Source: Pseudobdellovibrionaceae bacterium
GTDB lineage: Bacteria > Bdellovibrionota > Bdellovibrionia > Bdellovibrionales > UBA1609
Direction of reading: 5' to 3'
Assembly (NCBI GenBank): GCA_030591685.1
Contig: JAUVAX010000029.1
Span: 1 to 33,487 of the forward strand
DNA length: 33,487 nucleotides
The position numbers were made by a program, and so were the translations under genes. This document shows positions 5,287-33,487 of this stretch, piece by piece. Positions within the stretch are counted from its first letter, which is position 1, and each line of letters opens with the position of its first letter. The notes beneath the pieces are model-generated. The model was given only the letters and a program-made list of their open reading frames with translations. It did no database searches and had not been told where the DNA came from.

Positions 5287-5535
5287 ATGGTAGTCATTCG
5301 TTTAGCACGTGGTGGGTGTAAACATAACCCCAAGTACCGTATAACTGTAGCTGACCAAAGAAGAGCCGCAACTGGTAAGTACATTGAGGTTGTAGGGTCT
5401 TATATACCTAACCCTCAGGGCTCAGAGGTTTCTATTAAATTAGATTTAGATCGAGTTAAAGATTGGGTCAGCAAAGGGGCTCAGCCCACCAGTCGAGTAA
5501 AGAGTTTAATGAGAAAAGCTGAAAAAAGCGCATAA
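5287..5535 (+). CDS. rpsP: 30S ribosomal protein S16
   Basis: The 82-residue product has the S16 signature: VVIRLARGGCKHNPKYRITVAD near the N-terminus (shown here as MVVIRLARGG then KHNPKYRITV), then a GKYIEVVGSY block. Length is typical of the family. It binds 16S rRNA during small-subunit assembly. AAGGAG lies 8 bases before the ATG. The gene follows ffh and is closed by its own intrinsic terminator, which may set a different level from the downstream maturation genes. Confidence 0.97.
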   Translation: MVVIRLARGGCKHNPKYRITVADQRRAATGKYIEVVGSYIPNPQGSEVSIKLDLDRVKDWVSKGAQPTSRVKSLMRKAEKSA

Positions 5536-28598: not shown

Positions 28599-28964
28599 AA
28601 TTTAACTTTATCAAGTATGCTAAAGCTCTCCTCTATAAGGGGATCTAAATTAAAAAGGGCCGGTCTTAGAGGGTTAGTCACATATTTAAACAGGGTACGT
28701 TGAGTGCCAGTGAAGTATCAAGATAAGACATAAAAATAATTCATTTTCTTAAAACAATACATGTGGTTAAAATCGTATTAAAGAATAATACAAAAAAATT
28801 ATTCTCAAAAATCTTCTGTCTATGTGTTAGTCGAAATCAAAAGTTTTACGCTCCGCTTTGAGAGGTAATCTCTACACTGAGTACCTTTGAGTATGTAGTC
28901 ATATATTGAGATTTCTTGTGGCATGCTCTGTGCATTATTTAGTAGTGGGTAGGAGGGTGTAATT
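28599..28964. other. 366-base gap between pyk and the sigma-54-linked lipoprotein gene
   Basis: No supported gene is present. The first part contains a weak CTCC/GGGG stem about 30 bases after pyk that lacks a T run. The end carries a sigma-54-type promoter and a strong ribosome site (entered separately). Confidence 0.4.
28905..28934 (+). promoter_or_regulatory. Sigma-54-type promoter of the lipoprotein gene
   Basis: TGGCATGCTCTGTGCA (28919-28934) has GG and GC at the -24/-12 spacing and matches TGGYAYRN4TTGCW except at one T. The start would fall near 28945. ATTGAGA (28905-28911) lies 7 bases upstream, as in the second promoter at 30003. AGGAGGG at 28951 follows and the ATG is at 28965. Confidence 0.6.
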
Positions 28965-29381
28965 ATGTTTAAAAAAGCTGTGCGTATAAAGTATTTCATT
29001 AATATTATGAGTGTAACTCTTTTATTGGCTGCTTTTCAAAACTGTAGTCCTCCGCCGCTTGATGGCCAATCAGAAAGCTCAGTACTTAATTTGGATAATA
29101 TTGATGATGCCTATGCGTTCAAATCTAATTACACATCACCGAATACGTTTTCAATTGAACCTGTCGGAGACAATATCCTATCTGTAGAATACTACATTGA
29201 CGATGAGGTCGTACCTGTTTTTACAAACAGAGCAGTCCCCTTTATATTTAATTTAGAAACTTCTACATTAAATATTGGTACGCACAAAGTTTCAGGGATT
29301 CTAGTTGTTAGTTTTATGGGCAGCCCTGTAATAGTGCGAAAGAGTGTTAGTTTTGAGGTGATAGAAGGGGGGGGCCTCTGA
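28965..29381 (+). CDS. Lipoprotein, N-terminal part (Ig-like domain), ended by a frameshift
   Basis: This frame gives 138 residues. The lipoprotein signal is MFKKAVRIKYFINIMSVT followed by LLLAAFQNC (lipid Cys27; Asn before the Cys is atypical but plausible). A bacterial Ig-like beta-sandwich follows (LSVEYYIDDEVVPVFTNR, then PFIFNLETSTLNIGTHKVSG). It ends just after a run of eight G (29367-29374). Removing one G would join it without a gap to the frame at 29386, giving one protein of about 271 residues. A sigma-54-type promoter and a strong ribosome site precede the gene. Confidence 0.75.
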   Translation: MFKKAVRIKYFINIMSVTLLLAAFQNCSPPPLDGQSESSVLNLDNIDDAYAFKSNYTSPNTFSIEPVGDNILSVEYYIDDEVVPVFTNRAVPFIFNLETSTLNIGTHKVSGILVVSFMGSPVIVRKSVSFEVIEGGGL

Positions 29382-29385
29382 GGTA

Positions 29386-29781
29386 GTGACCCCTGCTGAT
29401 CCGGCAGCTGGAGACATAGTTATAGAGGCTGAAACGGGGGCTTTTGAGTCTCCATTCATGGTAGTTAATATTGAAGGGGGACAGGCTTTAACCTCTAATG
29501 ATTTCTCGCCCGGCATATCTACTTATGATGTTGTTGTGCCGGAAGATGGGTTTTATAAGTTTGGACTGAGAGTATTAGCTCCCGATGTTAGCAGTGATTC
29601 TGTATACTTTAGTGTAAATGGTGAGGCTAATATCAAATACGCTACAGGGATTCACACTGAATTGACCGATATCATGTACCAGGGTGCATCTGTGTATCAG
29701 TTGAGTAAGGGTGTACACAAACTTGTACTAACAAACCGAGAAAAAATCACTATCGATAAAATTTATTTTAGGGCCCAATAG
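29386..29781 (+). CDS. CBM6-like domain, C-terminal part of the same lipoprotein
   Basis: These 131 residues look like a carbohydrate-binding-module (CBM6/CBM35-like) beta-sandwich: DIVIEAETGAFESPFMVV, VPEDGFYKFGLRVLAP, VYFSVNGE, LSKGVHKLVLTNRE and IDKIYF. A GTG at 29386 could start it, but there is no signal peptide and no clear ribosome site. In the same frame the codons just before it continue the upstream gene (ASEVV after the G run). It is best read as the second half of the lipoprotein, not an independent gene. Glycan binding on the cell surface is inferred from the fold. Confidence 0.7.
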   Translation: MTPADPAAGDIVIEAETGAFESPFMVVNIEGGQALTSNDFSPGISTYDVVVPEDGFYKFGLRVLAPDVSSDSVYFSVNGEANIKYATGIHTELTDIMYQGASVYQLSKGVHKLVLTNREKITIDKIYFRAQ

Positions 29782-29991
29782 GGTTTACCTTAAAAGTGAA
29801 GTGGTTGCACGGGGAAGATAATAGATATTGCTTTAGGCGCAACATTTAATAGCGTGAAAATAAGGGGTAAAGGTTTTGTGGGTTTTTGCCACGTTCTTTA
29901 ATAAAAAAAGTACGTGTAAATATTTAGACAGAATTAAGACAGTAGTCACTTAATGCTGAATGGGGCTTCTCAGTTGGAGCACATTTGATCT

Positions 29992-30014
29992 CATAGTCTC
30001 ACATTGAGACTATG
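29992..30014. repeat. Perfect inverted repeat at the upstream edge of the sigma-54 promoter
   Basis: CATAGTCTCA (29992-30001) pairs perfectly with TGAGACTATG (30005-30014) around CAT. The right arm includes part of the ATTGAGA element shared with the other promoter and ends two bases before the -24 TGG. It could be an operator or an activator site. Confidence 0.6.
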
Positions 30015-30032
30015 CTTGGTATATTGTGTGCA
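30003..30032 (+). promoter_or_regulatory. Sigma-54-type promoter of the cytochrome/TAT gene set
   Basis: TGGTATATTGTGTGCA (30017-30032) has GG and GC in the -24/-12 arrangement. ATTGAGA (30003-30009) lies exactly 7 bases upstream, the same distance as at 28905. The start would be near 30043. Confidence 0.6.
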
Positions 30033-30081: not shown

Positions 30082-31020
30082 TTGAAATATACTTTGTTTT
30101 CACTACAAGCTTTTAAATTCGTTTTAAAACTTTTAGTTTTAATTCTCACCCCAGTATTTATTTTATTTTACCAGGCTTGTGGTTCGGGGTTTGAGTCTTT
30201 ATCTCTAACAAGTACTGGCCAGCTAGACTCATCAGACATCGTAGATTTAATGGACCCTGTTTTTGTTTCTGGTAAAGTACTTTATATTGCAAACTGTGCT
30301 AACTGTCATGGTGATTTAAGTGACTCTTCTAAGAGAGGTCGAACGGCTTTACAGATTAAGGATTCAATATCTTCAGAACCCAACATGTCTGTTTTGAGTT
30401 CATTGCAAAATCTCACAACTAATGAGTTAGAGCTTATAGCTCTGGCTTTGAATTTCGTAGTAGTCATAAAGTTGCCTCCGGGCGCAACAGACCTGAATTT
30501 GAGCTCTAAGCCAGCCCTTGGGGGTCGGTTTTATGTGGCATCTACATTTTTTCAATTATTTTATGATGAGCAAAATGTTTCTTCTGCAGATAATACGATT
30601 AAAGACATTATCAAAAATAATATTGAGGTGCAAGGATATGCCTTTGGTGGGTCTTGTCGATTTATGGATATTAATTGTGGTGATGGTTATGTTGAGTCCC
30701 CCGACGTACCTATGTATTCAAAACCTAATATTCCTAGAAGTGGATACCTAGTGCGTACATGTAATGAAGTTTTATCTATTGATAAAGCTGTGTTAACAGT
30801 TTTAAGAAAATCTGGATTAAGTGTTGAGTCTGAATATAGTGCCTCTAATGTTCAAAAACTGGTGCGAAGTTTTTATTCAGGTCGATCTGTTTCGTCTGAA
30901 GAGTTGAATGCTTTAGTTTTAGTTGGGCAGACGGCTATTTCAAAGGGGATGAGTCGAACTGATGGATGGCGATTTTTGATGCTCCCTATGTGTACCTCCG
31001 CCTACTTTGAATTATTGTGA
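30082..31020 (+). CDS. Cytochrome c-type lipoprotein
   Basis: The 312-residue product starts at TTG, 7 bases after AAGGG. A hydrophobic leader ends in the lipobox FYQAC (lipid Cys33). A c-type haem site C72-A-N-C75-H76 follows, inside FVSGKVLYIANCANCHGDLS, with M102 (EPNMSVL) as a possible sixth ligand, so the first domain is a small cytochrome c. The C-terminal 200 residues are unassigned and include four or five cysteines (GGSCRFMDINCGDGY, RTCNEVL, LPMCTSAY). The stop overlaps the region before the next gene's ATG by a few codons' distance. Haem attachment would need the Ccm/Ccs system, which is not in the window. Confidence 0.75.
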   Translation: MKYTLFSLQAFKFVLKLLVLILTPVFILFYQACGSGFESLSLTSTGQLDSSDIVDLMDPVFVSGKVLYIANCANCHGDLSDSSKRGRTALQIKDSISSEPNMSVLSSLQNLTTNELELIALALNFVVVIKLPPGATDLNLSSKPALGGRFYVASTFFQLFYDEQNVSSADNTIKDIIKNNIEVQGYAFGGSCRFMDINCGDGYVESPDVPMYSKPNIPRSGYLVRTCNEVLSIDKAVLTVLRKSGLSVESEYSASNVQKLVRSFYSGRSVSSEELNALVLVGQTAISKGMSRTDGWRFLMLPMCTSAYFELL

Positions 31021-31033
31021 TCAGGAGACAAGT

Positions 31034-32473
31034 ATGATTATAAAGGCAAAAAAAATTAAAAACTTTGTACTTAAGACATTTATTTTAGGTAGTGTTACTT
31101 TTTTTGTAAATACCTCTTCTGCTGAAGAGCTCTCACCCTTAGCTGTATTTCAGCGGTGTTACTCACGAATCACACAGTACAGGGTTGATATTAATAGCTC
31201 AATGGCAAAAAATGTTGAAAATGGCTCACTTGATCCTATTTCGGCCTGTGAATCTGTACTTAAAGGTGGGACCTTGAACAGCAGTTCTCGACTACCAGAC
31301 GTTAATAATGTCTTAAATCAAAGGGTATTAGAAACCTTTCACCGATTGCATGGCAGTTGGTTTGATGTGAAGTGGTTTAAGAGAATTGGAGTTTCAGAAC
31401 CTTTTAGGGCTACGAAAGTTATTTATGATTCAGCAGAGCCCTCATTTTTTATTACGAGAGCATTATTTGACCCTGCTTTTACATATAAGGACGCATTGAC
31501 ATCCAGCAGTGTGATAGTGGCTCAACGAAGTGTTGATAACCCGTCAACTATGCGTGGTCTGACTAAGTCAGATTTTATTTTTAATACTGAATCACAGTTT
31601 AAGTTTCCTGATCAGGGACTTTTATATGGTTTTCAAACTATGACTTCAGTAAATTGGAAATATTATTATGAAACTAGTGACGATAGTTATAGCGGTACAA
31701 TGCCAGTTCGAAAAAATCATGGTGGTGGTTACTTTTCATTAAGTGTGTATATGGAGCAAACAGTATCTGATATTCTTAAATTTAGAGCAGATGGTGCCTT
31801 AAAGCTGCCTCGCAAGTGGGCTCGTAGTTTACTTAAGGATGTGCTTTGTCGTGAACTACCCTTAGTTAGAGATAACGATGTGAGCTCTTATGTTGTACCA
31901 AATAGTAGTATTCCGTTTAGAAAGGCAAACACCTGTACGAAGTGTCACGCAACTATGGACCAAATGGCGTACACAGCTAGAGGGTTTTATTATGATGAGA
32001 GGGCGAACGGAGGCACAACCCCAAAATATGGGGGGACTTTTGGGCGAATATATGACGTTACAAAGCCAGCTGTTTCTGGGTGGCCTTCAGAGCCAACACC
32101 AAACTTTCATTTAACCCCGCCGAATGGTCGGCTTTTTTATCGCAACTATAATGGTGATTTAGTTAATCTCGCAGTGAGCAGCATGAAGGATTTATCTACT
32201 AAAATTGCCTCTCAGGATGACCCCTATATTTGTTTAGCAAAAAGGTATTATAAATATTTTATAGGTATAGATGTTAATATTAGCGATCCTGCTGACCCGG
32301 CACAGCCTCTTAACATGACCCCATTAGATGAAAGGCATCGAAGCAATGTGATTCAAATAGGCAAAAGGTTAAAGCAGCATTTAGATCCTCAAAAAGCCAT
32401 TATTGATATAATAAAGCTACCCGAATTTAAACAATTAGACCAAACCCTCAACTCAGGGAGTTCCGGTGGGTAA
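31034..32473 (+). CDS. Exported CxxCH protein, DUF1592/DUF1588-like
   Basis: I start at the ATG 31034, 5 bases after AGGAGA, giving 479 residues with a signal peptide (MIIKAKKIKNFVLKTFIL, cleavage near SSA-EE). A TTG-started extension back to 31007 overlaps the previous gene and destroys the signal. The middle is polar and aromatic-rich (WFDVKWFKRIG, ALFDPAFTYKDAL, VRKNHGGGYFSL). A single haem site C301-T-K-C304-H305 (FRKANTCTKCHATMDQMAY) is followed by a region like the C-terminal parts of planctomycete-type cytochrome proteins (FGRIYD..., KRLKQHLDPQKAIIDIIKLPEF). DUF membership is by resemblance only. It ends with its stop inside the start of the TAT gene. Confidence 0.65.
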   Translation: MIIKAKKIKNFVLKTFILGSVTFFVNTSSAEELSPLAVFQRCYSRITQYRVDINSSMAKNVENGSLDPISACESVLKGGTLNSSSRLPDVNNVLNQRVLETFHRLHGSWFDVKWFKRIGVSEPFRATKVIYDSAEPSFFITRALFDPAFTYKDALTSSSVIVAQRSVDNPSTMRGLTKSDFIFNTESQFKFPDQGLLYGFQTMTSVNWKYYYETSDDSYSGTMPVRKNHGGGYFSLSVYMEQTVSDILKFRADGALKLPRKWARSLLKDVLCRELPLVRDNDVSSYVVPNSSIPFRKANTCTKCHATMDQMAYTARGFYYDERANGGTTPKYGGTFGRIYDVTKPAVSGWPSEPTPNFHLTPPNGRLFYRNYNGDLVNLAVSSMKDLSTKIASQDDPYICLAKRYYKYFIGIDVNISDPADPAQPLNMTPLDERHRSNVIQIGKRLKQHLDPQKAIIDIIKLPEFKQLDQTLNSGSSGG

Positions 32474-33487
32474 GCATAAATTTAGTAGAAGAGATATTTT
32501 AAAATTGCTCGGTGGATTTACTGGGGCTTCAATAATTCAGAGTCCATTAGGGGTTCTTTATAGAAGTTGCCTTGATGGCGTGTTTTCTCAAGCTATGGCT
32601 CAAGAGGCAGGTAATATGCCGCGACGCTATGTGCAAATTGGTGAGCCTGGCGCACCCTCACGTTGGACCTTTGATTTATTTTTAAAACCATATAGCTCTA
32701 GTGGGTTTGTGCCAAATAATCTTATTGGGACAAAATATGTAGCCAGCGGCGGTCGTTATACAGACGTAGAGTATAAAACTATTTTACGAAACGGTATTAA
32801 TGTACCTTGGCTTTGGCAGTTCGGAGTCCCAAGGGCTGGTGGTGGCACAAGGCCCATGACGGACCTATTAAACAATATGCTCACCTTGCAAGGGATAACC
32901 ACCGGAGGCAACGGTCACCCTCAAGCCCAAATACTTCACTACTTACCACTCGGAGCTTCACAAAGCTTAATGGCTTTATCTGGTGACCCCTCAAACACAC
33001 CATTTCCGGCCGTTAATTTAACAGCCTCTGAGCATTATGTTTATAAATCTACAAATAATAAATCAGCTGTAAATGTTTTTGGGTCATCTAAAATTAACCT
33101 CATTGAAAAACTATTGGCTCCTTTTAAAGTAAATCTTTCAAGTGCTTATAAAGACAAAGCGGCGGATTTAACAAATGTAATGAACGATGCTTTTTTTGCA
33201 CTTAACGAGCTGGCGAGATCAAAGGGTTCGGGAGGGAAGCAAATTTCAAATAATATTGAAGCAGCCATTGAGCTTATAAATGGCAAAGGAGGGGAATTGC
33301 CCTCTTCTTGGGACAGCGTGCATTCAAAATATAAAACACTTGTCAGTCGGGCTTTTATGGAGACTCGTGGTTTAGCGGGTATTTCTGATATGCCCATTGG
33401 TATTACAAGTGACCGAGACGTCACCTACAATTTGGAAAGTAAAAAAGTTTCTACAGCTGATCTTAGAGATCTAATTACAAGTAGCAC
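32466..33487 (+). CDS. Twin-arginine-exported protein, DUF1552/DUF1501-like, cut by window edge
   Basis: Read from GTG 32466, 5 bases after AGGGAG and overlapping the previous stop by 8 bases, the frame is open for 340 codons to the end. It begins GKHKFSRRDILKLLGGF, a twin-arginine signal (SRRDILK with R8/R9), with a hydrophobic stretch to about residue 45 (AMA). Later segments (LLNNMLTLQGITTGGNGHPQ, LGASQSLMALSGDPS) resemble the PF07586/PF07394-type proteins that pair with cytochrome-like DUF1592 genes. No catalytic residues can be named. TAT export implies folding, perhaps with a cofactor, before export. The C-terminus lies beyond the window. Confidence 0.7.
   Translation, partial: MGKHKFSRRDILKLLGGFTGASIIQSPLGVLYRSCLDGVFSQAMAQEAGNMPRRYVQIGEPGAPSRWTFDLFLKPYSSSGFVPNNLIGTKYVASGGRYTDVEYKTILRNGINVPWLWQFGVPRAGGGTRPMTDLLNNMLTLQGITTGGNGHPQAQILHYLPLGASQSLMALSGDPSNTPFPAVNLTASEHYVYKSTNNKSAVNVFGSSKINLIEKLLAPFKVNLSSAYKDKAADLTNVMNDAFFALNELARSKGSGGKQISNNIEAAIELINGKGGELPSSWDSVHSKYKTLVSRAFMETRGLAGISDMPIGITSDRDVTYNLESKKVSTADLRDLITSS

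Follow-up and report, generated by a model that had tools for sequence, protein, structure and literature searches.

Related sigma-54-type promoters before a lipoprotein gene and a cytochrome/TAT operon in a Pseudobdellovibrionaceae genome suggest control by a common activator

Upstream of a lipoprotein gene (site S1) and of a cytochrome/TAT operon (site S2), the genome of a Pseudobdellovibrionaceae bacterium contains two sites that are probably genuine sigma-54 promoters and members of a large set of such promoters. We think it likely that both arose, together with a third promoter located on contig C11 (S3), from one duplicated segment, and that a putative enhancer-binding protein (EBP) acting on TTGAG repeats switches them on jointly. 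The sequence evidence comprises the promoter cores and their recurrence at the same place in orthologues, together with the regulon and a three-way similarity of the upstream regions. The window, which is the whole stretch of DNA that was analysed (33,487 nucleotides), represents an entire contig of the 2.66-Mb genome (98 contigs).

Table 1. Features of the three promoters and the genes behind them. Coordinates without prefix are those of the window (contig G000:C56).
Feature	Position	Strand	Remarks
S1 TTGAG-type box array	28857-28911	+	TGAG at 28859, 28878, 28888 and 28907; spacings 19, 10, 19; candidate activator-binding region
S1 ATTGAGA (promoter-proximal box)	28905-28911	+	followed by TTTCTTG
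S1 sigma-54 core TGGCATGCTCTGTGCA (-24/-12)	28919-28934	+	best-scoring site of the window
Lipoprotein gene	28965-29781	+	Ig-like half 28965-29381; C-terminal half 29386-29781
S2 upstream region corresponding to the S1 array, in register	29957-30009	+	TGAA, GGAG, TGAT, TGAG with the same spacings
Perfect 10-bp dyad CATAGTCTCA-CAT-TGAGACTATG	29992-30014	.	includes the S2 ATTGAGA; sole genome copy with 0-1 mismatch
S2 ATTGAGA	30003-30009	+	followed by CTATGCT
S2 sigma-54 core TGGTATATTGTGTGCA	30017-30032	+	orthologous operons have TGGCTCCC[CG]T[TC]TTGCA at the same place
Cytochrome c-like lipoprotein gene (CANCH), first of the S2 unit	30082-31020	+	orthologue matches Cytochrome_CBB3 weakly
c-type cytochrome-like gene (CTKCH)	31034-32473	+	orthologue weakly resembles PSCyt3/PSD2 (DUF1588/DUF1585)
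TAT-signal protein gene, DUF1501-like	32466-33485	+	cut by the contig end
S3 promoter core TGGTACAGCCTGTGCA	G000:C11:9376-9391	-	from relaxed scans; precedes the paralogue of the window lipoprotein
C11 lipoprotein-like paralogue	L267:7245-9272	-	lineage-specific; Ig-like domain, second domain, PL6 alginate lyase/chondroitinase B domain

A sequence-only reading of the window had described one motif, ATTGAGA followed by a sigma-54-type core, at S1 and S2, and its positions, the identical spacing and the GG/GC placement are exactly as claimed: at both sites, 10 bases separate the GG at -24 from the GC at -12. The sigma-54 layout was thus correctly recognised, but the quoted consensus TGGYAYRN4TTGCW is missed by one base at both sites, which have GTGCA in place of TTGCA; S2 in addition has TGGT. 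Natural sigma-54 promoters often deviate from the full consensus, and therefore this deviation is no defining failure. The genome-wide scan for the composite motif that had been proposed located TTGAGA-N7-TGG-N8-GTGCA with up to one mismatch at S1 and S2 only, with about 0.02 exact matches expected in the 2.66-Mb genome from base-composition arithmetic. Since the motif is confined to these two places, the pair is not a chance occurrence. At two to three mismatches the scan came near background (200 matches vs 171 in the control). TGGYAYRN5TGCA alone was not enriched genome-wide (7 vs 6 in the reversed control), thus the sigma-54 consensus itself proves little. Across 99 genomes, the composite motif yielded scattered single matches and was discarded as an element common to the relatives.

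The proposal that S1 and S2 are sigma-54 promoters is well supported by several features of the genome. It encodes a full-length RpoN (486 aa) with an intact RpoN box, ARRTVAKYR, and about 12 strong EBP domains, at least six of which have GAFTGA; to this are added a large set of intergenic sites and the canonical sites that precede the operon's orthologues in two other genera. S1 has the highest score in the window with 16.1 bits and S2 has a moderate score of 12.4 bits, using a matrix written after the published consensus and applied to the window and the loci of the relatives. Other, chance sites in the window, some of them inside genes, score 12-14 bits and are comparable with S2. The assignment of S2 therefore leans mainly on its position, on the orthologues and on its similarity to S1.

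The operon behind S2 (cytochrome, 479-aa protein and TAT protein) is conserved in two other genera, G017 and G038, and in both a canonical sigma-54 site is located directly before its first gene (TGGCTCCCGTCTTGCA in G017 and TGGCTCCCCTTTTGCA in G038). These are the top-scoring sites of their 14-17 kb loci, and the probability of such a placement by chance was roughly estimated as 2e-5. Upstream of the orthologues in G024 and G063 no recognisable sigma-54 site was found, and promoter placement is thus conserved in two of the four well-matched orthologues outside the window. The relatives having the operon are Bdellovibrionales or Bdellovibrionia MAGs, and no closer relative of the operon was found among public genome contigs. 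The orthologue of the TAT protein in locus L100 matches PF07394 (DUF1501) above the cut-off and the other operon proteins are weakly matched; in sequence, the operon resembles PSCyt/DUF1501 gene sets. In G024 (L101) and G063 (L162), a single gene of about 1,370-1,380 aa joins an Ig-repeat lipoprotein and the cytochrome domain; this fusion suggests a functional tie between the Ig-type lipoprotein and the cytochrome. Upstream of the fusion in G024, on the reverse strand of L101 at about 5474-5508, an inverted repeat (TTTTGAGAC-N-GTCTCAAAA) resembles the TGAGAC arms at S2.

Genome-wide, the canonical pattern TGGCNYN5TTGCW occurs at 64 sites compared to 8 in a reversed control, which contains CG pairs and is possibly too low; for this reason the placement of the sites carries more weight than the counts. 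Forty-eight of the 64 sites are intergenic and correctly oriented, nearly all of them with the start of a co-directional ORF about 10-200 bases downstream. In addition, these intergenic sites show a T before TGG and an A/T bias at several positions after TGC, in columns that lie outside the selection pattern. The genes downstream of the 48 sites are mostly those of exported proteins, lipoproteins, pilins or flagellar proteins. The predicted sigma-54 promoters in loci L172-L234 number at least 48, and the genes behind them include those of many 'FQNC' lipoproteins, of a type IV pilin, of a flagellar rod protein and of further exported proteins. Among the 6-mers upstream of the 48 promoters, GTTAGG is present in 8 (1.5 expected) and TGTCAC in 10 (2.5 expected), and both are possible candidate activator sites.

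About 60 bp of upstream sequence are common to S1, S2 and S3. S1 and S2 are identical in register at 24 of 40 and 31 of 60 positions, S2 and S3, independently, at 23 of 40 and 28 of 50 at a shift of one base, and neither pair is matched by any of 1128 pairs of other promoters. The similarity between S1 and S3 is clear in gapped alignment; that of S1 to S2 and of S2 to S3 was not visible with gapped alignment scoring, only as in-register identity. Since the gapped score did not pick out S2, we temper the claim for this site. A three-way alignment retains GA-N2-AC-N-TTTGA, TGAG, TGG and TGTGCA. TTGAG-type repeat boxes upstream of the core were seen in these three promoters only, those of S2 being degenerate and those of S3 being similar to the S1 array. 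The array was recognised post hoc, and the invariant columns of the three-way alignment are 10 of 20 in the boxes versus 11 of 40 in the surroundings, a weak excess in favour of the boxes (p = 0.08). In Myxococcus xanthus, the EBP Nla28 targets imperfect direct repeats that are clustered upstream of sigma-54 promoters (PMC9765219), and since this is a known form of activator site, the box array is plausible. The other 48 promoters show no enrichment of TTTGAG or TTGAGA, and TTTGAG was consequently rejected as a common UAS.

The sequence-only reading had further suggested that ATTGAGA may be a dedicated recognition element. This idea survives in weakened form, with ATTGAGA as one segment of the longer region common to the three related promoters. 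The heptamer is found at the same position in 0 of the 47-48 other sigma-54 promoters of the genome and is missing from the orthologous promoters in G017 and G038, thus it lies outside sigma-54 recognition. Across 47 promoters, conserved upstream columns are missing, which rules against ATTGAGA as an extension common to sigma-54 promoters; TTGAGA is present in four of the 48 upstream regions, at different distances. With its location at about -40 to -34, ATTGAGA is nearer to the core than is usual for an EBP site, and it forms the last, promoter-proximal box of the TTGAG-like array.

It might also be that S1 and S2 are sigma-54 promoters whose upstream likeness is an unselected residue of an old duplication, with the activator sites elsewhere and ATTGAGA idle. 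The gene behind S3 is a paralogue of the one behind S1, thus shared descent of these two promoters is to be expected; moreover, the orthologous cytochrome-operon promoters have no ATTGAGA and the boxes do not differ significantly from their surroundings in invariance. However, S2 precedes an unrelated gene and still keeps its 23/40 identity to S3 and 24/40 identity to S1, with the sequence beyond about -60 having drifted, and we regard an unselected residue as unlikely. Even less probable is that ATTGAGA marks an operator for another regulator, either a repressor or an activator; this operator would be a dyad of the form ATAGTCTCA-N3-TGAGACTAT just upstream of -24 and would modulate sigma-54 transcription. 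The perfect dyad at S2 is unique in the genome and its position beside -24 would suit steric repression, but it is broken at S1 (about 4 of 8 pairs by inspection) and absent at S3. The genome has no second good copy, hence a genome-wide operator was rejected; a local repressor site at S2 is conceivable, since the last box is half of the perfect dyad.

TTGAGA could be read as the -35 element of a sigma-70-type promoter as well, as it agrees with TTGACA at five of six positions and is followed, at S1 and at S2, by a 17-bp spacer and TGTGCA as -10 element. TGTGCA agrees with TATAAT at just two of six positions, though, S3 has ATGAGG with an altered spacer, and the orthologues retain sigma-54 sites. 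The promoter scan, which finds chance numbers (8 vs 8.1), did not list the pair. We therefore rejected the sigma-70 reading, which is very improbable.

According to the reading we prefer, S1, S2 and S3 would descend from one duplicated promoter-plus-upstream segment. The sigma-54 RNA polymerase would bind the -24/-12 core, and an EBP encoded elsewhere would bind the upstream TTGAG-type direct repeats and open the promoter through ATP hydrolysis, so that the lipoprotein genes and the cytochrome/DUF1501 operon would be turned on together. ATTGAGA would then be either the repeat nearest to the promoter or a leftover of the duplication. What we infer from these sequences is that an activator exists, that it binds to the boxes and that the units are expressed jointly. 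Co-regulation by an activator encoded elsewhere, as the initial reading had it, is made likely by the relatedness of the upstream regions over about 60 bp and by the finding of no EBP gene in the window or in 22 loci of relatives; an EBP gene adjoining the operon was accordingly dismissed. More tentatively, the whole promoter-enhancer module, a helically spaced four-box TTGAG array abutting -24, might have been copied within this lineage onto the unrelated cytochrome/DUF1501 operon, which would place this operon under the same activator as the polysaccharide-lyase-type lipoprotein family.

The two halves of the window lipoprotein seem to belong to a single gene that is interrupted at a G8 tract (29367-29374), and the C11 paralogue is continuous where the window gene is split. 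This tract is the only G/C run of at least 7 in the window and lies exactly at the frame break, which is either phase variation or an assembly error. No orthologue of the gene behind S1 was found in 98 other genomes, and the gene behind S3 is its sole paralogue in the genome and likewise has no match in the 98 relatives. At about position 9275 of contig C11 (L267, minus strand), a TAA replaces the codon of the lipobox glutamine (F*NC vs FQNC in the window copy), which is either a real nonsense change or a sequence error.

What is new, as far as sequence can tell, is the promoter family described here, together with its operon and with the regulon predicted for this genome. The analysis assigns a cytochrome/DUF1501 operon that had not been described, as well as a lineage-specific lipoprotein family, to the predicted sigma-54 regulon of a Bdellovibrionales bacterium, and it offers a small, testable case in which promoter duplication would bring a further operon under one and the same activator. 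A set of at least 48 predicted sigma-54 promoters, mostly for surface or secreted proteins, could help to explain how the exterior is regulated in this group.

Sigma-54 control of the bacterial exterior, with promoters before surface-protein genes, is of a known kind (Francke et al. 2011, PMC3162934), and the regulon predicted here is alike in that its genes are mainly those of exported proteins, lipoproteins, pilins and flagellar proteins. It differs in being predicted in a Bdellovibrionales genome; the main text of that paper does not include Bdellovibrio, and no Bdellovibrio sigma-54 regulon was found in the literature searched. The C11 paralogue has the domain of PL6 alginate lyases and chondroitinase B (Pfam E 5e-23; PDB matches AlyGC and BcAlyPL6), whereas the window copy ends before it and keeps only the Ig-like and the following domain. 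Compared to -24/-12 promoters of the TGGCAC-N5-TTGCW type, S1 and S2 share TGG and TGC at the exact spacing, the intergenic location directly before genes and a genome encoding RpoN and EBPs; they differ in the GTGCA and, at S2, the TGGT described above. As with the Nla28 targets (PMC9765219), the sigma-54 core is preceded by several direct-repeat boxes; however, Nla28 sites read CT(C/G)CG(C/G)AG, whereas the boxes here are TTGAG, the activator is putative and the last box lies 7 bases from the -24 element.
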